NCBI GenBank assembly: GCA_032622095.1
Contig: CP136064.1
Location: 256,535,863-256,599,862 of the forward strand
Length of the DNA stretch: 64,000 bases
Direction: 5' to 3'
From: Siphonodentalium dalli
Lineage: Eukaryota; Mollusca; Scaphopoda; Gadilida; Siphonodentaliidae
Notes under the pieces: model-generated
The model's database searches: none
The model's input: only the letters and a program-made list of their open reading frames with translations
Told to the model about the DNA's origin: nothing
Translations under genes and position numbers: made by a program
Shown here: positions 2,715 to 47,318 of the stretch, piece by piece
How positions within the stretch are numbered: the first letter of the stretch is position 1
Layout of the letters: each line of letters begins with the position of its first letter

Positions 2715-2857
2715 TTATGCCTTGTAGATTCTGCATCGTATGCTGGAGTCAGCCTCCCAGTGAAACCTGGTGCAAGTCGGACTTCTGTGGCAAATCGCGA
2801 CGCAGTCCTCGATAATGATTCCAGTGTTTCCGTGGACGAAGAAGTCGAAGCCTACCT
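2715..2857 (-). CDS. Lectin gene exon 5 (terminal; PAN-like core and stop)
   Basis: The 3' splice site reads TGGTGTCTTCTCAG then AGGTAGG; the first two bases AG complete a GAG codon with the G left by exon 4. The exon encodes 46 residues with the pattern DC-x3-C-x5-C-x12-C, typical of PAN/apple domains, and ends in TAA at 2717-2715. Confidence 0.85.
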
Positions 2858-5800
2858 CTGAGAAGACACCATCATCAAGGTCGAATGTTTCATATGTCAT
2901 CGAAGCTCCTGTAATTGTATGGTAAAGTATCAAGGTCGAATGTTCCATAGGACATCAAGGTTCCTCAAATGGATTGATAAATTATCAAGGTTGAATGTTT
3001 CATATGCTATCGACACTCCTAGAATTGTATGAAACGACATCAAGGTTGAATGTTTCACATGACATCGAGGCTCCTAGAATGGATTGTTAAAGTGTCAAGG
3101 TCGAATGTTTCATATGACATCGACTCTCCTACAATTGTATGATAAGATGTCAAGGTTGAATATTTCACATGACACCGAGGCTCCTAAAATGGATTGACAA
3201 AGTGTCAAGATCGAATGTTTCATATAACATCGGCGGCGCCTGGAATTGTATGATAAAGTATAAAGGTCAAATATTACGTGGGACACAGGGGGGGGGGGGG
3301 GGGTCCGGAAAAAATTGCACATATAGGGCCCAAAATTTTGGGGATCCACCACCCCCCTTTCTCATGTTTTATCAAAATTTCAGAGTTTTTGTTTAGCCGT
3401 TCTTCAATAACTGTTAACTGCCTTTCAATCCCACTCCACTATCCTTTTATTGGTGCAAACTCTTGCTGTGTACCATTAAGACTCAAGCAATAACATTACA
3501 TAATTGGTAAACACAGATGATCTGACAACAATAATAAAGCACTGTGTAGGTACACTATATGTCACAAATCGCCCTAGACCCCATTATAGCTGATTATAGC
3601 AGTGATTATAGCCTTAATATATCGGGTGTGTTAAATTGTGTCTGACAGAGAACACTGGCCTGCACTGGCCAGTGTAAATAGTGGTAAACAGGTCAGGGGT
3701 TCTGAGGAGTTCCACAATTATTTGTGAATGACCAAAGAACTCTTTAGTCTTATCCACCATTCTGGTTAGGTATACACATAGATATATGGTTATTATATCC
3801 CCCGATATTAGTCGGCGGGTATATAGTTGACGTCTCGAGCCGTCCGTGCGTCCGTCCGTGCAAACATTTTGCATTATAACTCAAGAGTCGGTTGTCATAT
3901 TTTGATGCCCTATGGCATGGTGACGGACCAGAAATAGGGAACGAATCAGAACGAATATGCATAATATCACGGGTTGTGACCATCAATGCCTACCATAGTT
4001 ATGGGCCCTGTTCGACTTTATGAAATTCAGTCCGTACAAAGTTTTTGCAATATAAGTTAAGTGTCGGTTGTTGAATTTTGATGTGGTTTGGTATGATGAT
4101 AGACCAGAATGATAGGGGAAGGATGTATATGCACATATTACTGCATATCACAGTTTTCGCCTGTCAATCAGTGTCAATGCATACCAGAGTTACCGGCCTT
4201 GTTCCATCCGTAAACACATTTTTCATTATTATAACTCAACCATGGGTTAACAGATTTTGATGTTCTTTGGTACGAGTATGAAGACATTGAAGAATGTCAT
4301 TTCTCAATGTATCTGAATGCATCACATTATTTCAGTTCATCTATTTTATTTGTAAGTGATAACAGTATACAATTAGTATTTTAGTTTAGTCTTGTTGAGC
4401 AGTTAAGCTCCAAGATGAAGTTCGGAAATTCAATGAGAATAGCGTCACCTTCAGTTGGGATTGTCTGAGCAGTAAACAGTAACGGTCATTCATCATAACC
4501 AATTCAGTTTTATTTGGATAATTGTTGCAAATTAACATTACTTGCAATCATTCAAGATGAGAAATAACCAGAAGGAATGAATTTGATTACATGCCAGAAC
4601 AAAACAGTATTTCAGACATTAGAAATTTATGAGATACCCTTTTCAATTTCATGTTATGCAACAATCAGGTTAATGATATCTAGTCATCATTGAGTATTCA
4701 CCATGTAGTATCCAATTTGTGATACAGTTTTTTTGTTTTATTACTTTTATTCAGGTAATATATTAATTTTGTTACTAAATATTTCTTCCGTTGATCATAA
4801 GTTTCCTCAACGGTGGACCACTGTGAAGTGGGCCGGGATCCTGTGAAATCCAGAATGTTGCTAAATCTGAGGCTAAAGAGTCACTATAACTGCCTATATA
4901 GCCCTATTTGTGATGCGGTATCCCAGGCTGAGTACAAACATGCCAAGCGAAAATTCCGACAAACGTTACGCTCGTCTATGAGGAAGACGGAACATGACTC
5001 GCTCGATCAACTTTGTGCTAGGACAAATAATTCACAGTTTTGGCGAACTCTGAAGTCAGCTGACCAGGGATCACGCTCGAATGGTCTATGTTCAGTTATG
5101 AAGTTCGACGACATCACTCTTCGGGATCCAGTTAAAATTTTGTCAGCATGGGGATCCTACTTCAAGAACCTGTACACTCCTAATGCGCATAGTGATCCTG
5201 AATTCGAAGTCGTCGCACGAACGCGCATCGAACAGCTCCTCGACGTATCACACACAAACTATACTGACATTATATTCTGTGAACGGATAACTATCCCAGA
5301 ACTCAACTCAGTTTTAAAGAACCTTAAACGCCATAAATCAAGCGGAATAGACAATGTGGTGAATGGGCATATTATTAATGGGAGCGAATGTCTTAAAGTG
5401 GCTCTTTGTCATCTCTACAACGGCATGATTGACTTGGAGTGGATACCTCCGTGTTTAAAAACTGGTATCATCGTACCCCTCTACAAGGGATCTCCAAAAC
5501 CACACGCCATTCCTGACAGCTATATCGAGCTATCACTCTGCTTCCAGTTATGTATAAAGTATTCGAAGGCATCCTGCTTAACAGGTTCCTCACGAACGGT
5601 CACTTTCCAAATTTCCCTAATAAATTACAACATGGTTTTCAGAAAGGTGTGAACTGCCTCATGACCTCCTTCGTTATCCCAGAGTCTATCTCGTATCTCC
5701 ACGACCTTGATGCTCGAGCATATGTGTGCTTCTTGGATTCGCAGAAGGCTTTTGATCGTGTATGGCACGAGGGCCTTCTGGTAAAACTTCACGACATGGT

Positions 5801-8800
5801 TTTCAATGGAAACAGTCTGCGACTTGTGACAAATATGCACCAATATTGCAAAAGTCATGTTTTATATAACGGATCTCTTTCTGAACCATTCGATGTTCTA
5901 CAAGGAACAAGACACGGAGCAGTGACTTCACCCTTTTTTTTATCTTGCTGGAAACTTTGACCAAATCCAGAAATGGTCTACACATCTCTGAAATTCCGTG
6001 TACTTCGCCGTCTGCGGCTGACGATATTGCTCTGGTATCACTCACGAAATCAGGTCTTGATAGCCTCATCGACATCTGTTATATATACAGTCGGCAGTGG
6101 AGATTTAATTTCTCAACGACGAAAAGCACAATTGTTGTATTCAACGAGACAAATCGTCAAGATAAACTCAACGATAGACAATGGTTTCTTGGTGATCAAC
6201 CGCTTCCAGAATCTAACAACTATGTTCATCTTGGAATCAAACAGTGCAAATTCCAAGCTGATACAACTAGGAGCTCAATTATTTCGGAAATGTTACGAAA
6301 ATCGTACTTTAGTATCGCTGGAAGAGGTTTGCTCAAATCGTGCACACCACTAACAATGGCAAATCTGTTAGGATCAATCGTGCTGCCAAAAGCTCTATAT
6401 GGTTGTCAGTTGCTGAATATCACAAACAACACAACCATGTATTCAATGGAAAAGGCATACCGATTATGTGTCAAACACACCCAAACGCTCCCGACGCGGA
6501 CCCCGACCAACGTTGCGATGAGTCTCCTTGGGTTAATACCGCTTGAGACGGAGATACACATCAACAAACTATATTTTCTCTCTGAACTGATCCATCTGCC
6601 CCAAGGACACCAGGTGCCTCTTACGATCTTTCTCCAAAAAAATTTCCAGCACACCATTTTCGCTCGTCAAACAACTAGATTCGTCCCGGATATCATTGAA
6701 ATATTAAATCGCTATGCCCTGTATCATGTCCTAACATCATACGTGAAAACTGGAATTTTCCCAACGAAATCTTCTTGGAAAAATCTTGTGCAGACAGCAG
6801 TCCGACATAATTATTATCGAGAATGGTGCCGGTCTGTGTCAGTCGATCGAAACCTCGATGTCTTTAAAATTGTACACGGAGACCCAGCATCATGTTGGAA
6901 CATTTGGAGGATCCTACGAGAATACCCACGTTTTAATAAAGAACTGCGAAATCTTGCCTTGTTGCTAAACAAGACAACATACAGTAATAATTTGACATGT
7001 TGCACATGTAAAAATACATATAACAATGAGTTAATACATGCAATTCGCTGCTGTAATTCAACCTGTTCTGTCTTCCTGATGAACGACTATCTGGAATACA
7101 TAACTGACCAATACGGCGTGGCCGTCTTTCTGTATGTTGACTCGTTAAGTGATATTGAACTTTATGCATTTCTACTCGGCGCCGACGTCATGCAGTCGCC
7201 GGTGGAAATAGCACAACGCATGGATCAAATAGTTTTAGACACTGCTTCTTTTCTGTTCGTCTTGTGTCAACTGATTCGAGGACAATAAGTGCATTATTAA
7301 TCCATGACGTTGGAATGTCGACCTCGGCTCTCACATCCAAATGGACATATTTGAGCCATGGGACATATGAGACAGTAAACATATTACGGCGGAGCCACTC
7401 CGCAAACACAGTGTATATTATTGTTCCATTTATATGAACTATACATATTATTCTCCATATTGGAGGTCCACAATAAAATATATAACAGATATGGTACTAA
7501 CATGCTTACAAACAACATTACATGGTCAGTACTTGTAAATTGTTTGAAAAAAACCCATTTTGGAAAAAATTTACAAGCACGATTTTTTCGGCCTCTGGAC
7601 CACCCACCCACCCCGGCCCTATATACGGAATTTGTTTGCAGAACCCCCCTCTGTGGGACATCGAGGTTTCTAAAACGGCAATGTATTGAAATACAATACT
7701 TACATTAAGGCAGAATATTACATTATATTTCTATACGCCAGCGCGTACTCTAACATTATATTTATATACGTTAGCGCATATTCTAACATTATATTTCTAT
7801 ATGCAAGGGTATATTCCAACATTATATTTCTAAACGTCAGCGCGTACTCTAACATTATATTTCTATACTTCAGCGCGTATTCTAACATTTTCTTGATATT
7901 CAGTGGATTTATTAGTTTTCAGATGAAGCTGCCGAGTGCATTAAAGATGAGTCACTTTTATTAAATCCTCTTCATGACTATATAGATACAAGTTGTCCGG
8001 CCAGCTGTTTACATACTCCTCGAAACGCAAGCAAATCAGCATTCGTTTCTTAACCCTTTACCCAACAGAATGGCCCTGTGTCCTACCAGTTGGCCCTGTG
8101 CCAATGCATTCTCTTATATATGCGAGTCGACCATAGGTCGCCTCGCATATATAAGAGAATGCATTGGCTTAACACATATTAAAAATGATAAAATTGTCAA
8201 AGAATGTAGAAAAATATTATAAAAAATGTAAAAAAATGTAAGAAAAAATTATAAAATTGTTAAAGAATTAAAGAAAAAAATTGTAAAAAAAGATTTTTTT
8301 TAGGCCAATGCATTCTCTTATATATGCGAGGCGACCTATGGTCGACTCGCATATATAAGAGAATGCATTGGCACAGGGCATAACTGTAACCATCACAATG
8401 TGGTCAATGAACCGGTTCCAATGATATCCATATGTGTATGGTGTTATTGAGACAGACCGAAGATATTTTAGGCTGTTGAAGCTTTATTTGGGCGGTTTTG
8501 GCCGCTTTGTTGGGTAAATGGTTAAAGGTGCCATCTTCATGTCACGTTAACCCTGTTACTAAAACACAATTGACGTGAAGTTATCCCATATTTATTGAGG
8601 GAAATGTTCAGATCAAAAGTTCAACAAACTAAGGTCATGTGTGAACTTTTTATCTAAACATTTCCTTCAATAAATAGGGCACCTTCTGCACTTTAATGTA
8701 TTTGTCACCTGCTTTTTACCACCTTAACATCCATCCGAATGAACAATAGACTATTCCAATGTACACATTTTAACTGACTGGGAGAATACATTTAGTATAG

Positions 8801-11800
8801 CAAGCATCAACGATGCTATTTGGGTTGACGAACGTGAAAATACGAATTGGATTATTTAAAAACTTTATTTCAATATAAAATTTTATTCAGACAAACATCG
8901 TGCAATTATGATACCCAACAGCTTGGTTGAGATTTGACATAAAACACATTGGGCTTATCGAGAAGTCGGAGTTCGCATTGTTGTCTGTTTTAATGGGTTT
9001 TTGGCGGGGTGGGTGAGAGTTGTTGGGCACGACTGTGCCACGACATATTTGTGACTATATTATGTTGGGATTTACACAATAACATGTTATGGTATATTGT
9101 CCCTGGGTATATCCTTCATGTAAGAATACACGAAACCGCGCACCCATCCATTCTCCATATGTGTTATTAGTTTGAGTTAGGGTTAGGGCTAGGGTTAGGT
9201 TGGGGCTAGAGTTTGAGCTAGGGTTAGGGTTAGAGTTAGGGTTAGGGTGGTTAGGGTTGGGGTAATTAGAGTATTCTTACATGAATGACATACCGCCGCT
9301 GTCGTTTTTTTTAAATTTGTATTGTGTATGCATTCCAGATAGTCAAGCCTGTTTATCGTGTTTTGGACAATGGTATATGTGACCCGCCATATCAAATCCA
9401 GTTGGAAGTCGGGATTTTTTTACCCTGTGCCAATGCATTCTCTTATATATGCGAGTCGACCATAGGTCGCCTCGCATATATAAGAGAATGCATTGGCCTA
9501 ACAATTTTTTACAATTTTAATAATTTTTTCTTGTATTCTTTAACAATTTTATAATTTCACCCATACAGAGCCCCAGACAAACATGAGCAGACGACACTCT
9601 TCTATATGCTTCTATATATGTGTGGGGCTCCCTGCAGGGTAATGGATGTTTTTTATTTTATGTCCTAAAAATTGTCAGAAACATTTATTTAAAAAAAATG
9701 ATAAAAAATTGTTAGGCCAATGCATTCTCTTATATATGCGAGGCGACCTATGGTCGACTCGCATATATAAGAGAATGCATTGGCACATGGTAAAAAAAAT
9801 CCCGACTTCCGACTGTATTTGATATGGCGGGTCACATATAAAGACATCAGACACAAGCTGTTTAGGATATGAATTTTCAAGATTAGTCGCTCACCATTTG
9901 ATGCAATTTTCTTGCCACGTCCGAAAGCAACTTTGATATCTCTGTTTGGGTAGGTGCCTTCTGCCATTTTCTCAACAGGTCCATTCATGTAGGATTGATC
10001 TGTAATGAATCACACCTTGTTGCGATCGTAATATATAAATGTATAAAGAGACTCCCAATCTCCAGGATTTAAATTAAACCTAAACTTATGTGTTTTTCCA
10101 TGTTATTATATGGGTGTATGTATAAACATCGGTCAATAATTACATGTCTATATGGCTCTATATTAGTTTAAAAGACATACCGAAGTGGCAAATTCGTTAG
10201 CAATGTTCACACTCTAATACGAACCCCGCCAGCAATCAAATTATCAGATTATATGCATATTACTCGAAACCGGCTGTGGGTATGTGTAAATTGGTAGTTC
10301 AAAGGAATAGTGCTTGATTTGGCCTTTCATTGTTACTAAGGATCTTTTATTTTCTTTCTGAGGCGATACTCTCTATCAATTCAATAACATTTAATCAAGG
10401 TATAGTTGGTATATATCCTATCGATCTATTTCGATAGCCGGACCACGATAAAAGTATAAAGAAATTATACTTATAATGTGCATAAAATGAGACGCGCAGA
10501 TTAATTGTCTCTCGAATGTCGGGAGTAATTAAACGATTCTCTATCTCTGCCCGTCACCATTTCCAACAACAATAACAACAACAAACAACAACAAAAACAA
10601 CAACAACAGCAGATCAAGGAAACTTAATTGTCTAGTAGGTATATTTGCATTACAAATATTCCTTAAAAACAAGAAGAACCATTTGTGTTAAACATGTTTT
10701 ACTTAACAGTACTTAAAATTGATTATCTCGTCCTAAATACGTTTTATATACGTATCAAATAATAAGCATGAGTCGAAAACACCTGTCCGGAAACGCTGCT
10801 ATCAATTTTTATTATATGCTTCCCCATTAAATAGTGGGAAATTGCCGTGGCGTAGAGCGTTATATCCATCGCCTGGACCGACTCGATGGATAACACTGAC
10901 CGACTCGATGGATAACACTGACCGACTCGATGGATAACACAGTAGTATTACTTTTTCGGAGATTACATCCGGTTTATAGCGGCGAATCACATTAAGTTTC
11001 AAAGCGTATCAATAACAGCCGGACTATTGTTTTAATTATTGATTTTCACGGTTCATAAACTGTTATTTAATTGTTATAATGTTAACTCATTTGTTTTAAT
11101 ATATTCTTATCACTAAATTATGTATACATTAATTTTCTCGCATCATTTCAGAATAAAACAATGGGGACTATTTCTTATGGCGGCTATTCTCGATATTTGT
11201 CATTCGGTGGTGAGCAAATCAATTGATGGAATGTAAACAAAATGCAAGTGTCGAAGCTTTCTAACAATTTGAAGTGAACTGTAGGACAAAATTAGCAGTT
11301 TTGGTGCGGTTTATAGCGCATATAATAAAAAGAAAACCTACGGGTTTTGGTTGAATACCCGGATTATCTCATTCGTGGGTGCAAGGAAGTACAGAATTTC
11401 CACTCGCGGCTTGCAGCCGCTCGTGGAAATTCTGTACTTCCTTGCACCCACTCATGAGATAATTCGGATATTCAACCAAAACTCGTAGGTATTCTCTATA
11501 TATTGATTTTATATCTATATTATTTCATATCAAGTGGGACATTGTTTCGTTAATATTTTAGAACAGACCATCATGAAGCGTTCACGCGATCTCATGTAGA
11601 TATAGAGTTCACCCGCTTTCTCCGCTCCGCGAGCCGCAATTGCATGTGCCGTGTGTATTATACCAGAAAATTTGAAATAAATCAATATAAATTGATAGAA
11701 TCACAAGGATCTTAGATTCTTATTTATTATTTTATACCCAGGAAGCTATATACCACTTGTTATATGAATAGATAGACCATCTTTAATAAGCTATATTGTC

Positions 11801-14800
11801 AATCGAAAACACACACAAATATCTAATGATAATAATAATATGTTATGTCCTATTTTTTTAAAGAAACTTTGGGGGAAAAATAATTGTCTAGTGACAGTAT
11901 AAAGTTGTCGCCCGCTGTCGAGGGAGACAATGAGATTTGTCACCCGCTCGAGAACGGACTGTCTCCCGAGGAGCGCAGCTCCGAGGTAGAGATTCCGTTC
12001 TCGAGTGGGTGACAAATCTCAATTTCTCTCGAGAAGAAGGGCAACAACTGTTTTGTTATCCGATTAATACAGACAAAAATCCTTTCCATCCACACGCACG
12101 ATGTTGCACTGAGTCACGAGTCCTTTTTTCCCGATTATGTATATTTTCAGTAACTTTACACGAGATGTTCACTTCACGTCATCTCCCCCCGAAACCTATT
12201 GGGTAGTTGTCGATTTCATTAATGTATATTCATATGTGTCAATGCTCCCAAGTACATGGCGATCCCCCACTTTCGCCTATAGTATTCAAATTTTAAATCT
12301 TAAATGACTCATATAATTCGGTATCAGAAATAGTTTTGTGTTGCATTTTTGGACAATATTTCAGAAAATGGGTGAAAACTATCAAATTATAGAGACCAAT
12401 AAATATAGCATAGTTTACAAATATATATAAAACAGCCACTGGAGCTTTGCGAACATATCCACTATATATATATATAACGAGCAGTCTCTTTGAAAAGTCG
12501 ACGAATATCCTAACGGATATACGTCTCTAGAAGTGTCCATAATATTACATTTCTACTCGGCATTCTCAACATGACGTAATAAACCGTTTCCAAATATGGA
12601 TTGCATTTGTGTGGTATTAAATGTTTGTGAGAATCGCATTATTTAGAATTAGTTATAACTACAACTAGATGCGAAAGAGTAATCAGTTATCAATATCGTT
12701 GACTAATAAAAACTCGAAGATGATGTGTCCTATCTATTGCGATGAGTAAAATTAATTATGGATATATAGCCTGTATTCAGTTTTCCAACAATAGTTGAGT
12801 TTGATACTGCGTGGGAAAATTGTCAACGAGTCATTGACCTCTGATCTCTGAAGTGATCTGCTATGCCATAAACCAGTGAAATCGCACTCAGTCTGCGCCA
12901 CTCTCCAATGAAATGGAGGGAATCCCTCAATATAGAATCTAATTTTAACAGAGAGTTCTAGAGACGTACATCCTATACAGGATTTTGTCGACTAATATGA
13001 GGAGTCTGCATATGTTGTTTAGTTAGTTTTACAGCGCTTGTCCTTATTCAATGCTACACAATAGTCGGATTCCTTATGTCATTTTGCAATTTTGGTTTGT
13101 TAAAAGCGATCTGAAAACGGATTCTGTATGCCTAGCAGGTGTGTTTTCGGGATTGACTTGTTTCCATTCTTTAATTTTGGCGGGTCGGCCTAAATCGGGG
13201 TCAACATAGTTTAAAGAGCGTTTCGTATTTGCAGAAAAACGATAGATGGTGCCATCTGGCGTATGGTGATCCGTGCGATTTGAAAGTTCTCAAAACTACT
13301 AGCTATTACCCTTACGTGTATTTTTGAAAATTTTGATGTGATCAGTTCATTCTTGCTGGCTACAGTTGCGATCAAAATTTAACACTGATCCCTATGGAGA
13401 TTCTAGATTTTGGATAAATGGCGCCATATTGCGTATGATGATATGCGCGTACTGATATTCCTAAAAATACTAAGTATGAAACACAGACATAGTTTTAAAA
13501 AGATTGGATGTGATCAGATTATTCTTGCTGGCTACAGTTGCGATCAAAATTTAACACTGAACCCTATGGAGAATTTCGTGTTATGCTCAAACGTTGATTG
13601 TAATATCACTTATTGGCGATCCTGTGCAACTATATATGAAGATTAACACTCGTTTTTGACTCACTATAACTATCCGTGATTTAATAGTTGCAATATATGA
13701 TATAGTTATGCCTCAATATACAGTAACTGGCAAAAGTAAGTGCCGAATGGTTTTTGTAATTTCGATAATATGCAGTTTGTTGAGTCAAACGAAACTATTC
13801 CCAACAAGACTGAAGTTTCACGATGTGATTACATATTAAACTATTGTTTTATTTGATACTGTTCGTCTTGTTGTCCACTGACTAGTTTTTGAAGCCACGT
13901 TGTTGATCATAACGGATGTAGTGTCACAAATACACATGTATAGATGTTAATTGTTCATATTCATTAACTCCACCGTTGTCATCGGAGTCTATATATCCCA
14001 CATACACTGGGAGATTCTGTGTATTCGCAGGATTTGAACTACTGACAAATGGACATTTCAGTGAGATCTTTACTATACAGTATAGGCTTTGCTTTCACAC
14101 TTCCCACGCCAGTTACATTTGGCGAACTTCAGTACAGCGACTGAAACCTACATTCACCATCAATATTCTAACCACAATTAATCTTCACGCTTCATGTATA
14201 GCTGTGATAATCAAGTAAATTCGAATTTCCACTAAAGTAGAGCTTAATGAGTAAAATACATATAAACTATAATTGCATTTTCCTGCAAATTCCCAGTAGG
14301 TGCTTAGTAAAACCGTTACTAAGAGCTATCGGGTGGCAAAGTCTCCCGATCTTATAATGATCAGTGGGCTATGCAGAATATGCCTGCATAGTTTTAGACA
14401 TACATGTGCCCAAATTGGAACAAAACCAGCACCATGTGATTAGACACTGACTAAATTAAGCAAAAATACCAATGAATGATTAGTACACAATTGTGGTATT
14501 TGATTAGCAACTGTCGCTAACCTTAACTAAGACATTTGGTTCACTCTGATGGTCAGGTATATCTCAAATTTCACATTTGGGTATCAACTGCATCGGAAAT
14601 GCAAACACTGGCGTTGAATTACGACGATATAAGCTATAATTGCAAGTTCCAGTCAATTCCCGGTAGTTGCCTATATAGGCTAAGTTTCTCGATCTTATAA
14701 TGATCAATGGCCCATGGGGCACAAACCTGTACAATTTCATACCTGTGTCACCATTTGAACATAACCCATACCATCCGACTATAGACACTATCTAATTTAC

Positions 14801-17800
14801 GGGAAAATACCACGACCCAGAGGGTTGATCGCCATGGGACGTCACGATTCAAAGCCCAAGTATAGAACGATCCATTAAGCTAAGCCGATGGTTTGTTCAC
14901 AACAGGTGGAGTCGTGATACATTATGAAGGATGATGGAAGGGTCCCCTCAACTATGTTCTTCAACGTTGCTAGTATCAATAAGTGGTCTTTACGAAACCA
15001 CCATGCACAACTTCCTGTCTATTCGCGATCTTGTCGCACCATTATCATGTCAGCCTAAGATATCTTGAACCCTCTCCTCACAAAATAAACAATGCTGTAC
15101 AATCCACAATATCGACAATTGTCCGTCCAGTAAAAGCACGTGTGCTTGTCGCAAAATGGGAGCATTATAGTAAACTTTATCACCATATAATAATACAACA
15201 ATGTCATTGTTTTTGTTAGAACCCACAGTTCTCACACATAACATAAATATAGAATTTATTACTTTTAATTTTGTAGTAGACATGGTCAAATTGACAACAC
15301 CACTGTCGTGTCATTATTATTCTATCCCATTAATCGTGATTCATATGCAAGTCTGTTTAAGCTTTGTCCACGCACTGTGTCACTTGCTTCTTAATGTGTT
15401 TTACTATATATAAGACCAAGCACATAATGCACATATATGTCTCCTTATAAATAAATTCTCTCTTAGAAAGTGTCCAGAGATGTCTTGCCTATTTATACTG
15501 ACAATTTATTTTTATTCTTGTGGAAAAGGATTTGAGGGAGTGATTTGTTATGTTGACTAAGGTGTTAATTTAGTATGTGAAACATGTATCCCGGGGGGAT
15601 GTATTGGGTGGACGGAGAATGTGTCTTCTTTATCATCAGATTAACATAATTTCAACTCCCAATTTGGATAAACCCGACCAGGATTTATAGAACAACAACT
15701 AATCTATGCCCAGCAATACATATGGACATGATAACATTTAAAAATTTGAAACAATACCAACCTATTCACATGTATGGCTAAACATATCATTGGCATAGAC
15801 GAGTTGTTGTAGTTGTTAAATTGATGTTGGTCGGGTTTCTCCAAATTTATTACTAAAACAGAATGATCCATAAGCATAGCTTGGCATGAAAATATAAAAA
15901 ATTATACATGACCGAACAATTTTAACAAACAGTGACTGACACCTACATAAATATGACTTGCATATTTGTTACCACACAACTCCGTATTATCCGGTACTTA
16001 AATTCGTCCTGGCAATAAACATTAATTTTGTCAATTGATGAAAAAACACCATCAATCAATTTAAAACGACATCCTGAAACTGTAGTCTTGATAAACATTA
16101 CATTTGTAGAATAGTGGACATTATCACTGAAGCACGTGATTGTGATGTATATAATTGATGTGAACCACATTTTTGTTATCAATTACTGTATCTGGTGGCC
16201 TGACTATATTGCAAGTTAATTTTGTAAAATCACATATAGTTACAGTAGATTACATGTAAGAGCCATGCATATATGATAGCCATTAAGTTCCATCACTGTG
16301 AACATTTGAGTAAATTGTCAAACTCTCTATTGGGTCCAACGTTAAATTTTGATCGCAACTGTTGTACTGTACCCGCGGAGACCAATATTCTCAAAAATAC
16401 ATTTCAGAGTCATACTTGATATATGTGTCTAATTTCAACTCGCACAATTCATGATAAGGCTAATCGTGTTAGTTAATATTTGTTATAACCAGGAAACGCT
16501 CTTTAAACTCTTAAAACCGTCCAAACAATTTGTTTCCACTAAAATGTCAGACTGGAAACAGGTAAAACCTGAAATTAGACCGCCATATTTGATAGTGTTG
16601 TTAATTTCAACTCGCACAGTCCACCAGAAGGTTAGTTATGAGGATTAATATCTGTATAATAAGTAAACGCTCTTTAAATTCTTAAAAGAGTCCAAAAACA
16701 CTTTTTCCATTAAAATTTCAACTGCACACAGGTAGACCCTGAAAGTAGACACGCTATTGATAAATAAACAGTTCGCATGTCGTATTTGACATTCCGAAAT
16801 TGCGCGACCTTTTTTTCGACAAAAGGAATCTGACTTGTCGTGAAATCAGCGATGATGGGGGTAGGGTTAGCTTTTCTGCGATATCTTTACCAAAAATCGA
16901 TGTATCGCAGTTTTGTTTGTGACATATGATCAAGATATCCTTGTATATTGTCCATGTTCGTCTATCTGTGATGTAGCTGATTTTAAGTATATACAATACC
17001 TTAATATTTTGGAAAGAAAATTGAAATTGCAGTCATAAATACAATTCATCTGATGATTTTATGATAAAATTCCACATTAAGATATGTAATTATGCAATTT
17101 GTGGAAAGATCTCTGTCTGTTTTTCGATTTCCAACAACAAAGAAAGCCACTTACCGATCTTGCTATGCGTAATAGCATGGTTTTTATTACCAGGTGGACG
17201 GGGAAAAATAGAGGGGTACACAACCAAAAGCCTCACACAAACCTGTTTCCACTAAAATATCAAGCTGGAAACAGGTAGATTCTGAAAATAGACACACTGG
17301 TGGTATAGAAACCGTTGTCATATCGCTTTTAACATTCCGAAAACGCTCGACAATGTTTTTCGACATAAGGAATCCGACTACAAGCGAACATGCATTATTT
17401 TCGCCTTTAATTATAAAATTATGACAAGCATCACCCAGAATGAAAAACAGTGCTATAATCATGAATAAATTCCTAACATCATGTCGTAAATAGAAATGTC
17501 AGTACACTATGATTTGACAAATGAAAAAAGTTGTTTGAATATAGGTAATTTAATGCTGAAAGCATACATGTACGCATAAAGCGACCGAATCAGTCGCTGA
17601 ATGGTAGAACATAATGTTCATTTGTTTTAATTCCACTTCTGTTTGTTAAAATTGTGACTAAAACCTAATCTTGACACCCGGCGTTCGGTAAGGAGTGCAG
17701 ATACTAAAAGCCAAGTGAGCCTGTTACAATATGCGTTCCCTGGGGGAATACTATAACAACTCACGCTTGCATCCAAAATAGCCAATACCACCACATCCAC

Positions 17801-19925
17801 CAAGTTTCCATGTAGTTGGGATTCCTCTGTAGAGAAACATCCAGTTGGTACAGTGTCTCGAGTTTCCGACTGTATCCGGCCCCGTGGCCCCGAAATAAGA
17901 GTAGAACTCTGGGTTCATCAGACTCCCGTCCCGCCAATGTAAGGTTTCGTTACCTACCCCGACAGCGCTTTCGTTGTGATGTAGTCCAATCGAAAGCCAG
18001 CCCCAGTTTTGACTGTGAAACAGACATAATTACAGGGGACTGTATCCTAAATCCGGCCATTTATAGGACCATCTCCTTTTATACTCAACATAATATATGC
18101 AACAAATGAATGAATTTGAGCCATGTATGAGTACAAAATACACTCATGTAACTTGAGTCATATATTAAATTTCATTATAATTGCTTGCATCGTTCAAAGA
18201 ACACATGGCCCAAATTCATTCATTTTTTGCATATATTCAATCTGTTGAGTATTAAAAGAGATGGTCCCATAAATGGCCGGAATTAGGGTACAGTCCCCAT
18301 TTAAACAATGTTTTTATCCATATTTTCCAAAAGAAATCAGCAATTCATTAGACTAATGGTATCCGTAAAAATCATCTCGGATACTGCAAATACCGGGTAT
18401 CGAGCAGATTTGTTTTACATTTGTATATTTAAATACTAAGTGTTGTCATCACTAAATCCAGCATTCTGATTGGTCGGCGCCCACGTGGCTAGTTGCAGTT
18501 ATTTCTCGGTGAATGCGCAACGGCTCATAACACCAAGCTCATAACACCATCGATACGTCAATGGGTTTGGAAAGACGAACGCGTAATGTTTTGGGCGCAT
18601 TTGGACTCGCGCAGGATTGACTTAATTTACATCATCGGGTTTCAATATGAAGAGAAATTGTTCCTATTAACCTTTGCCAAGGGTGCTATTGGGTATTTTG
18701 GGCTGTTTTTGTCACGATACACTTTTCGATTTAAATACATTTACAAAAGTGGCTTTTTCGCTAAATGTATATAAATATAAGGATTAACTGTCATGTGGAC
18801 TATTTTTATGGAGATGTAACCGTGAGGTAAGTGGTCATAACTTGTATGTAAAACCCTTCGGGTTTTACACAAGTTATGTCCACTTACCTCACGGTTACAT
18901 CTCCATAAAAACAGTCCACATGACAGTTAATCCTTATATACGTACTTTTCTTTTGATCGTTGTGGGCTCCCGATAGCGCATAACAAACTGCAAGGCAGAG
19001 TTCAGTCCCCTGCTGGTACGCTGACCAACACGGCCACCGTGTACACAGAATGTGAGGAAATCATTCGTTGTTTTAATTAAAACTTTTGTCGTTTAAAATT
19101 CATTCTGCATTATTCTGAGAAACCAAACTGCCCATATTCATTTGAAAATTGGCAATATCAAGCCAGAATTAATTGTTACTGACAAAACACTTTTATAAAA
19201 ACAATATTAGATTTAAATAGGAAAATATACATGATGGCAGCTGTCAAACCGACGTACCGAGGGGACTGAACTCTGTTTTATACAGCTTACCATTTCTATT
19301 AATTACCAATGACCAGCCAATCCCACTATGCATATTGATTACCGCACACGTCTCAAAATATTTTTGGTTGACAGAACCAATGGAAAACCTCTCTTTTTGA
19401 TGTCCCAAAAATCATTTGAAATTGAACTTGATGAGGTATCTTTTTTGAGGGCAACAACACCAATACAATATGGGTATGCACACTTATTTGATTACACGTG
19501 TGTATTAGTTATGTACTTTTAGTTATGTACTTTAATTCGTTTCAGAATCTCAATTCCGACAATATACATGATGACAGCGGTCAGACCAGTGTTGCGAGGG
19601 GACACTGTCTTGTACTTTGATCGCATTCATCTCTATAACTCCAAGGGATTTTGATTGAATATTTCGAGAACATTATTTAAAACGGTATTGAATTTGTGTA
19701 AACGGTGCATCACATTTAGAGTACGTTTACATACTGACACGTTCTTACGGAAAATAAGAAACATAATAGTACAGATAGGCGGAATGGTTAGAAAGGGGAT
19801 GAAACAACAAGCCCAACTGAATCATGTTAAGATTGGCCCCATTCTGTTTCAAGCCTCCCTTCATACACGTATGTTGAGAGGAGAATCGGACGGTAAGGAA
19901 TGAAACTAATATATTGGTATTGTAG

Positions 19926-19963
<38 letters not shown>

Positions 19964-20891
19964 AGTTTTAGTGGTATACATTTAGGAGATACACGTACTA
20001 TGATGAGTTGGATCTTCGGGGATTCGAGCATGAACCAAATTTGTGAACGAGCCGGCTTGTCGAAATGCGTTTTTTATCGGCAGCCATGAAGTAAGATATC
20101 CTTTTTCGGTGATCAGATCTCTGTGTATGTTCCATGTATTTACTCGGAACAGCACCGGAACAACTTCCCGTCAACGGCCGTTTCTATAGTAAACATATGT
20201 GAGCGGCGGTCTCGATTACGCGACTCCTGGCTTCGAGGTGACGTTTCTTACGCTGGGTATCATGACGCGATGCCCCATTCAAAATGCGTTAGCTGATCAG
20301 CGGCCGATTGTAATGAATCAAAAACTAAAATTACAACTCCCGACCAATCAGAATGTGTGTTTCAGAGACAAATATTCAAATTGAATTACAATTTAAATAT
20401 TTCTATTGCAAGGGATTCATTTTTATCAAATAGTGCATGTCCGAACTGCATCGCAAATGTGTTTTGTTTTCAGGGAGGCTGAGTTCATTTCATCTCCAGG
20501 ATTATAATCTTGGGTGCCGCATGAAAAGTGAAAATTTCAGTTTGAATGCTGAGTTTGATATATATTGTGTCGTTTCACAGTTGAGTAATAATATACAATA
20601 TATGTCAGCCGCCCTAAGTATTTAGAAGACAATGCACTTACCAACTGCACTTGAAGCTGTTGTAGAAATTTGAATACTCCTGTATTTCTGCTGCGTTATC
20701 GAATGTTAGCAGGCTCATCCCCATGCGTTGACACTGGTATTCAGCGATGTCATAGTTATCATCTGATAACTGGTAAGTGCTGAGCATGTATTTCGAATTG
20801 ACGTAAAGAGCTGTGGATAAATTCCAAATATAATATAGAGAGGTTTCACAAACTCACATGCGATTACAAATAAAGCTGTCAGGAGGTTCAT
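2715..20891 (-). CDS. Secreted C-type lectin-like protein with C-terminal PAN/apple-like module (5 exons)
   Basis: Exons 20891-20858, 20810-20642, 18012-17765, 9999-9895 and 2857-2715 join into 699 nt (232 codons plus TAA). Residues 1-12 are a short signal peptide. Residues 13-150 form a C-type lectin-like domain: first helix cysteine at 38, WLSIGL at 73-78, WRDG at 94-97, and cysteines 122, 141 and 149 as in the canonical core. The calcium and sugar triplets (EPN/QPD, WND) are absent, W136 being followed by KL, so sugar binding may be lost or altered. Residues about 152-232 look like a PAN/apple module with cysteines 204, 208, 214 and 227. NES and NET at 81 and 89 are possible glycosylation sites. 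Family knowledge suggests an extracellular recognition role, which is inference. All four splice junctions agree in phase (1, 2, 1, 1). Introns 2-4 are packed with mobile elements. Undetected extra exons cannot be excluded. Confidence 0.85.
2871..3285. repeat. 55-bp tandem array with 110-bp higher-order period
   Basis: The word T(C/T)GAATGTTTCA recurs at 2881, 2936, 2991, 3046, 3101, 3156, 3211 and 3267, an almost exact 55-bp period. Units alternate between an AATTGTATG type and an AATGGATTG type, giving a 110-bp dimer. The array lies in intron 4 right next to the exon 5 acceptor. It is interrupted by the hAT-like element at 3286, and one more half unit continues at 7653-7690. Confidence 0.92.
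3286..7652. mobile_element. hAT-like element with 8-bp target duplication, carrying a nested LINE (copy 1)
   Basis: The left end starts CAGGGGGG...TCCGGAAAAAATTGCACATATAGGGCC and the right end is its imperfect inverse. GTGGGACA lies directly outside both ends (3278-3285 and 7653-7660), an 8-bp duplication of the target, here the 55-bp satellite. CAG termini plus an 8-bp duplication fit the hAT superfamily. A shorter copy without the LINE is at 21565-23449. No transposase frame is visible, so it is non-autonomous. Confidence 0.75.
4905..7478 (+). pseudogene. Non-LTR retrotransposon (LINE), 5'-truncated, frameshifted reverse transcriptase
   Basis: Three consecutive frames carry reverse transcriptase blocks: LKTGIIVPLYKG (about 5456-5491), LDSQKAFDRVWH (motif A, near 5733-5768), LQGTRHGAVTSP (motif B, near 5896-5931) and SAADDIALVS (motif C, near 6012-6041). 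The tail has a cysteine/histidine knuckle, CCTCKNTYNNELIHAIRC. One frame break comes from an extra AT near 5523 and another from the T-run at 5932-5941, so the copy is dead although the catalytic aspartates are kept. No endonuclease domain lies upstream. Comparison with 23290-23310 places the insertion between about 4905 and 7478. The bases before 4905 belong to the host hAT-like element, so the GTG at 4813 is not a real start. Confidence 0.85.
7721..7892. repeat. 33-bp tandem array, about six units
   Basis: CATTATATTTCTATA recurs at 7721, 7754, 7787, 7820, 7853 and 7886, an exact 33-bp period. As 33 is eleven codons, the array is open in one frame and gives a repetitive peptide that I regard as an artefact. 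It lies in intron 4 of the lectin gene. Confidence 0.92.
8050..8525. mobile_element. piggyBac-like hairpin MITE, copy B
   Basis: TTAA flanks both ends (8050-8053 and 8522-8525), with CCCTTTACCCAACAGA at the left and TTGTTGGGTAAATGG at the right. Two long hairpins occupy the centre. It is about 75 bp longer than copy A owing to a local duplication of GGCCCTGTG near the left end and an expanded A/T-rich spacer between the hairpins. It lies in intron 4. Confidence 0.88.
8588..8677. repeat. Imperfect hairpin, arm TTTATTGAGGGAAATGTTCA
   Basis: About 25-bp inverted arms are separated by about 40 bp. The same arm word occurs at 59907-59932 and, diverged, at 56250-56275, so it belongs to a dispersed palindromic element. 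Confidence 0.7.
9115..9285. repeat. Interstitial telomere-like TTAGGG tract inside a 15-bp inverted repeat
   Basis: Bases 9174-9265 are built of TTAGGG and variants (GTTAGGG, GCTAGGG, GGTTGGGG). The tract is bracketed by TTCATGTAAGAATAC (9115-9129) and its exact reverse complement (9271-9285). It may be a scar of break repair or telomere-sequence capture. It lies in intron 4. Confidence 0.85.
9374..9840. mobile_element. MITE with different termini carrying the same double hairpin (copy C)
   Basis: The inverted ends begin TATATGTGACCCGCCATATC and extend about 45 bp to CGGGATTTTTT. The interior holds the same hairpin pair as the piggyBac-like family, but without the CCCTTTACCC ends or TTAA. 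The middle has an unrelated GC-richer stretch near 9570-9640. It ends 55 bp from the exon 4 donor. Confidence 0.82.
9895..9999 (-). CDS. Lectin gene exon 4 (symmetric phase 1-1, 105 bp)
   Basis: The acceptor reads GTGTGATTCATTACAG and the donor reads CAAATG then GTGAGC. Two leading bases AT complete a CAT codon with the C from exon 3, and the final G joins AG of exon 5. It encodes residues 152-185, including a basic FGRGKKIA segment, probably the first strand of the PAN-like module. The exon is short and has no strong domain signal alone; support comes from splice sites and phase agreement. Confidence 0.78.
10000..11330. other. Intron 3, start: low-complexity CAA tract and a 22-bp triplication
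   Basis: A (CAA)n-rich stretch lies at about 10558-10613. ACCGACTCGATGGATAACAC recurs three times at 22-bp spacing (10877, 10899, 10921). I see no exon or transposon end in the rest. Confidence 0.7.
11331..11496. mobile_element. Foldback palindrome 1 with CTCG-type tip
   Basis: Two arms of about 72 bp pair almost throughout (GGTGCAAGGAAGTACAGAAT in the left arm). The tip is CTCG-CGGC-TTGCA-GCCG-CTCG: CTCG is directly repeated, not inverted, around a mini-stem. No target duplication or coding frame is evident. Confidence 0.88.
11903..12049. mobile_element. Foldback palindrome 2 with CGAG-type tip
   Basis: Arms of about 65 bp pair imperfectly (left arm word GAGATTTGTCACCCGCTCGA). The tip is CGAG-GAGC-GCA-GCTC-CGAG, the same plan as foldback 1 on the other strand. 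The arm sequences are unrelated to foldback 1. Confidence 0.85.
12496..12997. mobile_element. Short inverted-repeat element
   Basis: About 40-bp arms, imperfectly inverted, contain TCTAGAGACGTA and GTCGAC near 12498-12535 and 12955-12997. The 420-bp centre has no open frame that I can support. Ends and target duplication are not resolved. Confidence 0.55.
13061..17381. mobile_element. 4.3-kb long-inverted-repeat element in lectin intron 3
   Basis: The left arm starts AGTCGGATTCCTTATGTC (13062) and continues through TTTAAAGAGCG (13191) and AGTTGCGATCAAAATTTAAC (13366). The right arm has these in inverse order at about 16342, 16491 and 17369-17380. Both arms hold internal duplications: on the left a 174-bp-spaced pair at 13334 and 13508; on the right a roughly 175-bp-spaced pair at 16431 and 16605, and related blocks at 16690 and 17240. 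The centre has a diverged direct repeat at about 14280-14465 and 14640-14812. No coding frame is recognisable. Transcribed as part of the intron, the arms could pair. Confidence 0.7.
17765..18012 (-). CDS. Lectin gene exon 3 (C-terminal half of the lectin domain)
   Basis: The acceptor reads ATTATGTCTGTTTCACAG and the donor reads GCAAGC then GTGAGT. It starts with one base T completing a TGT codon and ends with C. It encodes residues 69-150 with WLSIGL, HWRDGS, a cysteine at 122 and a final CGGIGYFGC block: the beta2, W-x-DG and closing-disulphide regions of a C-type lectin-like fold. A MITE begins 22 bp upstream of the acceptor. Confidence 0.88.
18035..18298. mobile_element. 264-bp MITE with about 90-bp inverted arms
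   Basis: The arms start GGGGACTGTA and run through CCGGCCATTTAT, ACTCAACA and AATGAATGAATTTG. The spacer is about 90 bp. It lies in intron 2, 22 bp upstream of the exon 3 acceptor, so the remaining polypyrimidine tract and branch region are very short or partly MITE-derived. Confidence 0.85.
18775..18940. mobile_element. Foldback palindrome 3 (tetraloop TTCG)
   Basis: Arms of about 80 bp are nearly perfect (ATAAGGATTAACTGTCATGT at the outside) and close on AAAACCC-TTCG-GGTTTT. It lacks the CTCG direct-repeat tip of the other foldbacks. It lies in intron 2. Confidence 0.88.
18996..19275. mobile_element. 280-bp MITE, ends CAGAGTTCAGTCCCC
   Basis: Inverted ends CAGAGTTCAGTCCCCT and AGGGGACTGAACTCTG are followed by partial arm similarity (GGTACG and CGTACC). 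CAG ends suggest an hAT-type element, but I see no 8-bp duplication. A diverged copy of the right-arm region recurs at 19560-19620. Confidence 0.7.
19276..20641. other. Intron 2, remainder
   Basis: A pure (GA)n run lies at 19927-19959 followed by a G-run. Otherwise I see no exon, MITE ends or RNA gene. Open frames here are short and without recognisable domains. Confidence 0.55.
20642..20810 (-). CDS. Lectin gene exon 2 (N-terminal half of the lectin domain)
   Basis: The acceptor reads TGGAATTTATCCACAG and the donor reads GCAGTTG then GTAAGT. It encodes residues 13-67, including AEYQCQRMGMSLLTFDNAAE, the first-helix signature of C-type lectin-like domains (cysteine 38), and KCS at the end. 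It begins with CT completing a TCT codon and ends with TG. Confidence 0.88.
20858..20891 (-). CDS. Lectin gene exon 1 (start codon and signal peptide)
   Basis: MNLLTALFVIA is followed by a split serine codon at a GTGAGT donor. The ATG at 20891 is the first in-frame methionine downstream of the TATA box; upstream in-frame codons include no ATG. Intron 1 is only 47 bp, with consensus ends. Confidence 0.82.
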
Positions 20892-20935
20892 GATGGGAGC
20901 TGCGCTGCTGCAGCATTCAATATCCCGCGCACTCA

Positions 20936-20943
20936 CTTATATA
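20936..20943 (-). promoter_or_regulatory. TATA box of the lectin gene
   Basis: TATATAAG on the minus strand ends 45 bp before the start codon. A start site about 30 bp downstream would leave a 5' leader of about 20 nt. The box lies in a decayed hairpin-MITE copy whose intact relatives contain the same GCATATATAAG word. Confidence 0.55.
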
Positions 20944-21046
20944 TGCGAGTCTCACACAGGTGTGCCAATGTGTTCGCTTACATGTATATATAATGATAGG
21001 TTCCTATGGCCTCGCATATATACGATAATTCATTAGAACAGGGTTT
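20936..21046. mobile_element. Decayed hairpin-MITE relic at the lectin promoter
   Basis: GTGCCAATG, TATATATAATGATAGG, CCTATGG, CTCGCATATATA and ACAGGG follow in the order of the second hairpin of the piggyBac-like MITEs, with many substitutions. A partial first hairpin (CTTATATATGCGAG) precedes it. The outer ends are gone. Confidence 0.65.
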
Positions 21047-24283: not shown

Positions 24284-24685
24284 TTAACCCTTTACCCAAA
24301 CAAACCGGCCAAAACCGGCCAAATAAAGCTTCAACAGCCTAAAATATCTTCGGTCTGTCTCAGTAGAACCATACACATATGGATATCATTGGAACCGGCT
24401 CCTTGACCACATTGTGATAGTTACAGTTATGCCCTGTGCCAATGCATTCTCTTATATATGCGAGTCGACCATAGGTCGCCTCGCATATTTAAGAGAATGC
24501 ATTGGCCTAAAAAAAATCTTTTTTTAACACTTTTTACCATTTTTTCTTACATTCTTTAACAATTTTATATATTTTTAATGTGTTAAGCCAATGCATTCTC
24601 TTATATATGCGAGGCGACCTATGGTCGACTCGCATATATAAGAGAATGCATTGGCACAGGGCCCTTCTGTTGGGTAAAGGGTTAA
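24284..24685. mobile_element. piggyBac-like hairpin MITE, copy D (inverted)
   Basis: TTAA occurs at 24284-24287 and 24682-24685, with CCCTTTACCCAAACA and TCTGTTGGGTAAAGGG inside them. The order of internal blocks is the reverse of copies A, B, E and F. Both hairpins are intact except one T substitution in the right arm of the first. Confidence 0.9.
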
Positions 24686-25241: not shown

Positions 25242-25313
25242 CGGTGAAACGCATGCAGGCTCTCTGACATATACATACATGAATGGACAGCAAGCATAGC
25301 GAATTTAAATAAG

Positions 25314-25616
25314 ATGACCTTTTACAGAATAATTAAGCCAGACTTTGACATAGATAAATATCTTTCACACACCAACAACAATGTCGTTTCACGCCTGATG
25401 AAATTCCGTACTAGGAATCACCGACTTCCCATCGAGACAGGCTCCTGGGTTGGACAAGTTCACGAAGATAGAAAGTGTAAATTATGTAACAACGGCATTG
25501 GAGACGAATATCACATTATTTTGAAGTGCACCAAACTTACTGATCTCAGAAAAAAATACATTAAACCATATTATCCACCGCTCACTACCTCTGTTGCCTA
25601 CATAAAGCATGCCTAA
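25314..25616 (+). pseudogene. LINE C-terminal fragment with CX2CX8HX4C knuckle
   Basis: One hundred codons end in TAA. RTRNHRLPIETGSW is followed by CKLCNNGIGDEYHIILKC and RKKYIKPYY, the conserved tail downstream of reverse transcriptase in many invertebrate LINEs. No reverse transcriptase lies upstream, so this is a 5'-truncated or orphan piece. It is not the same subfamily as the LINE at 4905-7478. Confidence 0.7.
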
Positions 25617-46378: not shown

Positions 46379-46600
46379 TCAATACCGATGGTATATACTG
46401 AGTCCATGCACTGTCGTACCCAGTATTACCGTCAGACTAATAGTACCACCATATCTATAACCGTCTGCGAGGAAATCCCAAGCTATGACTGGATAGCGTA
46501 AAAGATAACCTATGACTTTTAGTGTAGAAATGTAATACATACCTTGTGATACCTGAACATTCAGAACAATCAGGAGAACGACAAGAGCTGGACACGTCAT
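46379..46600 (-). CDS. Candidate two-exon small secreted peptide
   Basis: Exon 1 (46600-46543) starts MTCPALVVLLIVLNVQVSQ, a convincing signal peptide in a good initiation context (CAGCAATGAC), and ends at CAAG then GTATGT. A 78-bp intron ends ATTTCCTCGCAG. Exon 2 (46464-46379) completes a GAC codon and runs DGYRYGGTISLTVILG to TGA, giving a 48-residue product. An AT-rich AATAAAAG lies about 35 bp upstream. No family is recognised; exon 2 could instead continue through another donor. It lies just outside the 43166-46334 element and 319 bp from hairpin MITE F. Confidence 0.4.
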   Translation of the reverse strand: MTCPALVVLLIVLNVQVSQGMYYISTLKVIGYLLRYPVIAWDFLADGYRYGGTISLTVILGTTVHGLSIYHRY

Positions 46601-46918: not shown

Positions 46919-47318
46919 TTAACCCTTTACCCAAACAGAAGGGCCCTGTGCCAATGCATTATCTTATATATGCGAGTCGACCATAGGTCGCCTCGCATAT
47001 ATAAGAGAATGCATTGGCTTAACACATTAAAAATTATAAAATTGTTAAAGAATGTAAGAAAAAATGGTAAAAAGTGTTAAAAAAAGATTTTTTTTAGGCC
47101 AATGCATTCTCTTATATATGCGAGGCGACCTATGGTCGACTCGCATATATAAGAGAATGCATTGGCACAGGGCTAACTGTAACTATCACAATGTGGTCAA
47201 GGAGCCGGTTCCAATGATATCCATATTTGTATGGTTCTATTGAGACAGACCGAAGATATTTTAGGCTGTTGAAGCTTTATTTGGCCGGTTTTGGCCGGTT
47301 TGTTGGGTAAAGGGTTAA
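46919..47318. mobile_element. piggyBac-like hairpin MITE, copy F
   Basis: TTAA occurs at 46919-46922 and 47315-47318, with CCCTTTACCCAAACAGAAG and TTTGTTGGGTAAAGGG inside. Both hairpins are near-perfect. It is nearly identical to copies A and D, which suggests recent activity. Confidence 0.9.

Follow-up and report, generated by a model that had tools for sequence, protein, structure and literature searches.

A probable gene for a divergent C-type lectin-like protein with a PAN-like hairpin in repeat-rich DNA of Siphonodentalium dalli

Analysis of a 64,000-nucleotide stretch of Siphonodentalium dalli DNA (hereafter the window) pointed to a minus-strand gene for a small, probably secreted protein. 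We consider it quite probable that this is a real animal gene, single-copy within the window, whose product combines a putative signal peptide, a divergent C-type lectin-like domain (CTLD) encoded by exons 2 and 3, a short linker from exon 4, and a PAN-like hairpin from exon 5. The exons form an open, phase-consistent chain; the product resembles CTLDs beyond chance, has the four canonical cysteines, and has lost the EPN/QPD and WND motifs. Judged from its sequence, the protein is most likely a divergent, secreted CTLD/PAN-like protein that would bind its ligand without the main calcium site.

Results

Joining the exons reproduced what the preliminary description had claimed, namely, five phase-matched minus-strand exons with GT-AG borders at all four junctions and a 232-residue product. 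The coordinates are those of that description, the junction phases are 1, 2, 1, and 1, and the frame is open through all 232 residues to the stop codon.

20858..20891, minus strand: exon 1, coding part of 34 nt; ATG and hydrophobic MNLLTALFVIA; phase 1 out
20642..20810, minus strand: exon 2 (169 nt), encoding the N-terminal CTLD half and its first conserved cysteine, Cys38; phase 1 in, 2 out
17765..18012, minus strand: exon 3 (248 nt), encoding the C-terminal CTLD half; phase 2 in, 1 out
9895..9999, minus strand: exon 4, 105 nt; candidate linker; symmetric (phase 1-1), can be dropped without a frameshift
2715..2857, minus strand: exon 5, 143 nt including the stop; PAN-like hairpin C204-x3-C208-x5-C214-x12-C227

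Coding DNA amounts to 699 nt of the 18,177-nt locus (about 18.2 kb), or 3.85%, in agreement with the earlier figure of under 4% of an 18-kb gene, and is richer in GC than the locus (46.5% versus 37.7%; 26 of 20,000 random sets were equally GC rich). A simple splice matrix ranked the donors in the top 0.31 to 4.12% of 3,814 minus-strand GTs (GTGAGT of exon 1, top 0.60%), and among 2,869 AGs the four acceptors lay in the top 0.49 to 12.13%. The CTLD is flanked by phase-1 introns, as is usual for extracellular modules. A tblastn search of the product against the window returned its own exons and otherwise weak matches only (E of 4.1 or worse). No second trusted host gene was found by Pfam in the longer 148 of the 200 stop-to-stop frames of at least 65 aa, with 25 of 46 families listed, and tRNA and Rfam scans of the window gave no hits.

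The proposed CTLD was upheld over exons 2 and 3 by profile ranking, simulations, and hhalign. Among 1,661 open-frame fragments of the window, a CTLD profile ranked exon 3 first (14.2 bits) and exon 2 second (11.4 bits), the next fragment scoring 5.1, and the phase-consistent join of the two reached 24.0 bits, against simulated maxima of 8.9 (428 strict windows) and 12.5 (107 relaxed windows). An hhalign comparison with 10 CTLDs gave a probability of 93.3 (E = 2.8e-7), and none of five decoys matched a lectin or PAN domain. Cysteines C38, C122, C141, and C149 align with the four canonical CTLD cysteines (paired C1-C4 and C2-C3); exon 3 holds LSIGL, HWRDGS, GPD, Cys122, WKLGGC141, and YFGC149, of which LSIGL (a WIGL-type core) and HWRDGS (the W-x-D-G strand) are in register with the CTLD alignment. 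By these comparisons, the lectin resemblance of exons 2 and 3 is well beyond chance. Pfam Lectin_C matched only when the two exons were joined (18.1 bits, E = 0.0048, profile positions 3 to 105 of 107, for the CTLD alone; 17.0 bits for the whole product; curated cut-off, 22.6), and Pfam returned nothing for exon 2 or exon 3 singly. The domain search proposed in the preliminary description found both expected families, Lectin_C and PAN_1, in the joined product, each below its Pfam cut-off. In the PDB match list that includes LY75 and langerin, 6 of 10 entries were not CTLD proteins, and unrelated proteins stood at similar E-values; AlphaFold mean pLDDT was 33.8 for the exon 3 frame and 52.7 for the exon 5 frame, both modeled as single-exon frames, values too low to inform on the fold.

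The weakness of single exons is what would be seen if random open frames had been assembled under the guidance of an earlier reading. That explanation is extremely improbable, since no strict simulated window came near the real score and the profile that placed exons 3 and 2 at the top was unguided; it is already contradicted for these two exons and still possible for exon 4.

The absence of EPN/QPD and WND was likewise borne out by the alignments, in which GPD occupies the EPN/QPD position and WKL the WND position, both in register. The W of WND and the P and D of QPD are thus retained, and the main calcium site would keep about one of its five ligands; the usual calcium-and-sugar site is apparently missing. 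According to parts of a bivalve review (PMC12842671), however, CgCLec-3 lacks the coordinating motif and yet is reported to be calcium dependent, so that motif loss is no proof of lost calcium use.

A PAN-like module had also been proposed, and it is present in exon 5 as a cysteine hairpin with the best PAN score in the window, on weaker support than that for the lectin domain. The apple/PAN profile scored exon 5 at 11.5 bits, a small margin over the next fragment (8.7). PAN_1, PAN_3, and PAN_4 all matched it below cut-off, PAN_1 reaching 13.4 bits with the whole product and 18.3 with 46 residues of exon 5, versus a cut-off of 21.4. The match is partial (profile positions 24 to 53 of 76), and the central C-x3-C-x5-C...C hairpin is in place (C204, C208, C214, and C227). 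In the PDB match list that includes MIC4 and microneme antigen L2, the top entry, TLP-IPT (E = 1.1e-6), was taken as chance, four weak repeats having been summed. The modest score, together with a distance of about 15 kb from exon 3 that is bridged solely by exon 4, would also suit a PAN-like exon belonging to another gene, with the lectin gene ending after exon 3 or elsewhere; we regard this as unlikely, as the strand, phase (1), and order of exon 5 are consistent with exon 3 and boundaries on both sides are phase 1. Adding exon 4 to the PAN query lowered the score from 12.8 to 11.2. A longer form of exon 5 was also considered.

2858..2908, minus strand: possible lengthening of exon 5 by 51 nt at its 5' end (exon 2715-2908, alternative acceptor, same phase; 249-aa product)

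Because its acceptor is weaker (top 17.3%, versus 1.64% for the exon 5 acceptor at 2857) and the extension overlaps the end of a 55-bp tandem array, the 249-aa reading was dropped.

The gene had been called complete; the open exon chain stands, and completeness is uncertain. Neither exon 1 nor exon 4 is backed by homology, intron 1 is very short (47 nt), no AATAAA or ATTAAA follows the stop within 870 nt, the PAN domain is partial, and two first exons compete to supply the hydrophobic N terminus, a putative signal peptide as judged by hydropathy and eye.

20936..20943, minus strand: TATA-like TATATAAG; its start is 52 nt upstream of the exon 1 ATG
46543..46600, minus strand: alternative first exon, MTCPALVVLLIVLNVQVSQ, with GTATGT as its phase-1 donor; the product of its join to exon 2 reads ...VSQA/LYVN

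The CTLD gene may be real with its ends misplaced: it may begin at 46543-46600, in which case it would span about 44 kb, or at a first exon not seen here, and exon 4 may be absent or one of several linkers. We give this reading a minor but appreciable chance. The distal exon, 25.7 kb upstream from exon 2 and in the same phase as exon 1, would encode a signal peptide of textbook form, the residue at the junction being small (Ala); it is the stronger signal-peptide exon (donor score of 5.04 and hydropathy of 3.3; the hydropathy window of exon 1 is 2.5), and none of 400 simulated 43-kb sequences contained a first exon as good. It could, however, be part of another gene, and exon 1 has a strong donor in the right phase 47 nt from exon 2 as well as the TATA-like box. 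Comparable first exons arose about 0.05 times per 43 kb in the simulations, at a cut of 4.7 that just left out exon 1, so one as near exon 2 as exon 1 is unlikely to be there by chance. Exon 4 is the weakest exon: the thresholds applied left it as the sole candidate between exons 3 and 5, but a candidate on the control strand passed them as well, with a higher splice score (8.64 versus 6.18).

The description of the surrounding DNA as filled with transposons was fair, with a frame-broken LINE-type reverse-transcriptase gene, palindromic elements, and tandem arrays.

2874..3272, strand not assigned: 55-bp tandem array (about 7 copies) that lies in intron 4 directly next to exon 5
4801..7285, plus strand: LINE-type reverse-transcriptase gene within intron 4, on the strand opposite to the lectin-like gene (frames 4801-5649, 5517-5957, and 5885-7285; RVT_1 in frame 5517-5957, E = 1.1e-12)

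The distal copy of a palindromic repeat was convincing (0 of 1,000 shuffles as good), and the repeat pattern had no match in IMG/VR. The TATA-like box sits in a possible degraded half-copy of this repeat, for which 16 of 1,000 shuffles and 55 of 2,369 window pieces were as good; as the half-copy is not convincing, we do not claim that the repeat donated the box.

Another reading is that of a pseudogene, a decaying copy in which the lectin-like exons are recognizable but the product is no longer made. Decay would account for the Pfam scores below cut-off, the PAN match that stops at position 53 of 76, and the lack of AATAAA or ATTAAA within 870 nt downstream of the stop, and the introns are large and repeat filled. 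Still, the five exons are open over 699 nt with intact splice sites, the canonical cysteines are retained, and within-window repeats, which make up 30.7% of the locus, include not one of the 699 coding bases; we consider a pseudogene unlikely.

Discussion

On the preferred reading, that of a functional gene, the signal peptide would direct secretion, and disulfides would probably join C38 to C149, C122 to C141, C204 to C227, and C208 to C214. With the main calcium site (site 2) presumably lost, recognition would proceed through loop side chains and without a canonical calcium-bound sugar; the PAN-like hairpin may provide a second contact or a packing surface. By analogy with expanded invertebrate CTLD families, the protein would most likely either bind matrix or serve in extracellular recognition of an immune or mucosal kind.

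In its putative signal peptide, one CTLD, and canonical cysteines, the protein resembles the mollusc-type single-CTLD secreted lectins covered in the parts of PMC12842671 considered here, and it differs from them in the added C-terminal PAN-like module and in a domain that falls below the Pfam cut-off. The EPN/QPD and WND positions are often variable in those lectins (RPD, KPD, VPD, HPD, and YPD), and GPD/WKL is not among the motifs in the table passages of that review. SPL-1 and SPL-2 of Saxidomus purpurata likewise have xPD for EPN (RPD/KPD), and according to the same passages calcium is not strictly required, a precedent for the proposed calcium-independent mechanism; the likeness is one of motif description only, and SPL keeps WND in the table where WKL stands here. 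Among PDB sequences, the CTLD of human LY75/DEC-205 aligns to the exon 2 half (E = 0.0056) and that of langerin to the exon 3 half (E = 0.27), their EPN/WND positions being in register with GPD/WKL; both are other proteins with other architectures, and langerin retains its calcium site. PAN/apple domains (Pfam PAN_1, PAN_3, and PAN_4; MIC4; microneme antigen L2) share the C-x3-C-x5-C-x12-C hairpin and a C..F.W/Y pattern, whereas here only the middle of the profile is matched and the product stops right after the hairpin.

Among the papers listed in searches of the open-licence full-text literature, none was found to describe an animal protein combining a CTLD with a PAN domain, which does not imply absence from print, and nothing came up on CTLD intron positions; the passages of PMC10140915, PMC9334734, and PMC8878817 consulted name no CTLD+PAN protein. 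A CTLD with a dismantled calcium site (GPD/WKL), fused to a minimal C-terminal PAN hairpin, might mark a lineage-specific family whose alternative first exons, 25 kb from each other, supply two different signal peptides, an unlikely proposal; if true, such a family would represent a small calcium-independent recognition protein of unusual architecture.

The locus matters mostly for a point about methods, as a gene that is less than 4% coding and whose single exons Pfam misses could be correctly inferred from the raw sequence, the homology evidence emerging only after phase-consistent exons were joined. As a member of a very large known family, the protein itself is ordinary and divergent; the CTLD repertoires of molluscs and other invertebrates, already known to be very large, gain with it one more divergent protein of CTLD/PAN-like type.

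Gene model

The lectin-like gene at 2715-20891 is probably real. All five minus-strand exons of the preliminary description were located, with GT-AG borders, intron phases 1, 2, 1 and 1, and a product of 232 residues plus stop:

20858-20891, minus strand: E1, proposed first exon
20642-20810, minus strand: E2, part of the C-type-lectin-like domain (CTLD)
17765-18012, minus strand: E3, remainder of the CTLD
9895-9999, minus strand: E4, candidate linker
2715-2857, minus strand: E5, PAN-like hairpin

From these coordinates the introns measure 47, 2629, 7765 and 7037 nt, and coding sequence makes up 3.85% of the 18,177-nt span, in line with the earlier figure of under 4%. The description of the gene as complete held in part: the exon chain was found, with weak links at E1, E4, and the PAN end. 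The 64-kb window looks like animal DNA, and the style of its repeats may point to a mollusc or some other marine invertebrate. GC content is 38% in the window and 46.5% in coding sequence versus 37.7% in the locus; among 20000 random sets matched in length to the coding exons, 26 were equally GC-rich. Within-window repeats cover 30.7% of the locus and 0 coding bases. The CTLD is bordered on both sides by phase-1 introns, which are usual for shuffled extracellular modules.

C-type-lectin-like domain

Pfam searches of the 232-aa product matched Lectin_C at 17.0 bits (E 0.011; cut-off 22.6, not reached), and a third weak family, DUF5354 (E 0.032), overlapped the first half. Searched apart, E2 and E3 gave no Pfam match; joined, they matched 3-105 of the 107 positions of the Lectin_C profile, with 18.1 bits and an E-value of 0.0048. 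None of five decoys (the reversed product and four shuffles) matched a lectin or PAN family in Pfam; one of them matched an unrelated family at E 0.29. A profile built from ten CTLDs, 10/10 of them recognized by Pfam, ranked E3 (14.2 bits) and E2 (11.4 bits) as the top two among 1661 stop-to-stop fragments of at least 25 aa from six frames of the whole window; the third scored 5.1. Splice scores came from a simple matrix, and at thresholds chosen to admit the real exons there were 98 candidate internal exons, among whose 116 joins E2+E3 ranked top at 24.0 bits. Across 428 order-3 Markov windows, the top join reached 8.9 bits and the top single exon 10.4, compared with real values of 24.0 and 12.4, respectively; when the splice thresholds were relaxed, the maximum join score in 107 simulated windows was 12.5 bits. 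Alignment with the ten CTLDs by hhalign gave a probability of 93.3 (E 2.8e-7, identity 17%). Among 10 PDB entries matching the CTLD piece at E <=10, four were CTLD proteins (LY75 twice, E 0.0056 and 0.0059; langerin, 0.27; CLEC4M, 2.8) and six were apparently unrelated. Single-frame structure prediction without an alignment gave mean pLDDT values of 33.8 for E3 and 52.7 for E5, too low to support a fold.

The product has 10 cysteines (38, 66, 68, 122, 141, 149, 204, 208, 214, and 227); C38, C122, C141, and C149 occupy the four canonical CTLD positions, and C204-C227 has the spacing of a PAN hairpin.

PAN-like end, linker, and first exon

PAN_1 matched the 232-aa product at 13.4 bits (Pfam, E 0.069), below its cut-off of 21.4; this match spans profile positions 24-53 of 76, and the protein ends one residue later. 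E5 alone matched PAN_1, PAN_4, and PAN_3 at 18.3, 16.8, and 16.2 bits. A PAN/apple profile built from six domains placed E5 first among the 1661 fragments (11.5 bits; runner-up, 8.7). The PAN piece had four PDB matches: TLP-IPT, two micronemal proteins (E 0.1 and 0.32), and VP2 (0.48). The TLP-IPT match of the PAN piece (E 1.1e-6), which sums four 7-bit repeats, is probably due to chance. TLP-IPT was also the sole PDB sequence match of the 232-aa product. An alternative in-phase E5 acceptor, adding 17 residues, scored -0.19 versus 3.64 for the one originally proposed. A 55-bp tandem array (2874-3272) adjoins E5. Some of its units duplicate the stretch around the alternative acceptor, which gives the array several weak decoy acceptors. 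The first AATAAA after the stop lies at position 1841, 874 nt downstream.

No domain support was found for E4. It is the sole symmetric phase-1 candidate that the chosen thresholds admit in the E3-E5 interval, but a candidate on the other strand of that interval passes too and outscores it on splicing (8.64 versus 6.18); E4 is therefore not beyond chance. Adding E4 lowered the PAN profile score from 12.8 to 11.2, a value reached by 0/2000 shuffles of E4+E5.

In favor of E1 are its strong donor, which has the required phase and lies beside E2, and a TATA-like box (20936-20943, minus strand) 52 nt before the ATG, whereas intron 1, at just 47 nt, argues against it. Upstream on the minus strand, five donors could close a hydrophobic first exon of matching phase. 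The most hydrophobic, 46543-46600 (MTCPALVVLLIVLNVQVSQ), 25.7 kb from E2, is a strong signal-peptide-like candidate for the first exon. At cuts of donor >=4.7 and hydropathy >=2.5, two real upstream candidates pass (E1, at 4.70, sits at the cut and was left out of the count), compared with 0.05 simulated first exons per 43 kb; 0/400 simulated sequences equaled 46543-46600, and no first exon on the 64-kb plus strand passed. The 46543-46600 exon is either an alternative start of the lectin-like gene or part of another gene.

Repeats and transposon remnants

An element in which two near-perfect 68-bp palindromes, inverted relative to each other, enclose a spacer of 57-220 bp is present in six copies (12 palindromes):

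1509-1725
8100-8372
9429-9784
24438-24655
39627-39819
46950-47166

Flanks are alike in 5/6 copies (reversed in one of them), which places the element inside a larger repeat. Around the 9429 copy the flanks differ from those of the other five. A nested inverted repeat at 9374-9840, 55 bp from E4, has 48-bp outer arms around a paired-palindrome element. Diverged copies of the palindrome lie directly upstream of E1 (20928-21034): the distal one (20964-21034) is convincing as a true copy, and the half-copy at 20928-20961, which holds the TATA-like box, shows no significant likeness to the palindrome. A LINE-type reverse transcriptase extends over three overlapping plus-strand frames at 4801-7285 (RVT_1, E 1.1e-12 in the middle frame). 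A plus-strand fragment at 25248-25613, with a weak zf-RVT match below cut-off (E 0.0084), is probably another LINE remnant. Tandem arrays are as follows:

1-335: 24 bp x 13.8, 99% match
9176-9263: telomere-like GTTAGG x 15
52701-53814: 164 bp x 6.8
63676-63979: 121 bp x 2.5

Calcium site and comparison with mollusc lectins

Alignments with langerin and with the ten CTLDs bore out the earlier observation that EPN/QPD and WND are missing: GPD stands for EPN and WKL for WND, and the acidic residue after the EPN position is replaced by Arg (NEHC to SRHC). By mannose-binding-protein numbering, five residues bind calcium at site 2, and about one of them is kept here. With so few ligands, we infer from the residues that the CTLD may function without a canonical calcium-bound sugar. 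This is not certain, since CgCLec-3 lacks the coordinating motif, yet is described as calcium dependent; the same source describes SPL-2 as a calcium-independent binder, and the bivalve motif variants it describes include RPD, KPD, VPD, HPD, and YPD (PMC12842671). Reported C-type lectin numbers exceed 100 in most gastropods and reach 200-500 in bivalves (PMC10140915), and 146 CTLD proteins are reported for Aplysia (PMC9334734). The predicted gene is a further divergent member of a known CTLD kind, not a new kind; given such repertoires, another divergent member is unsurprising.
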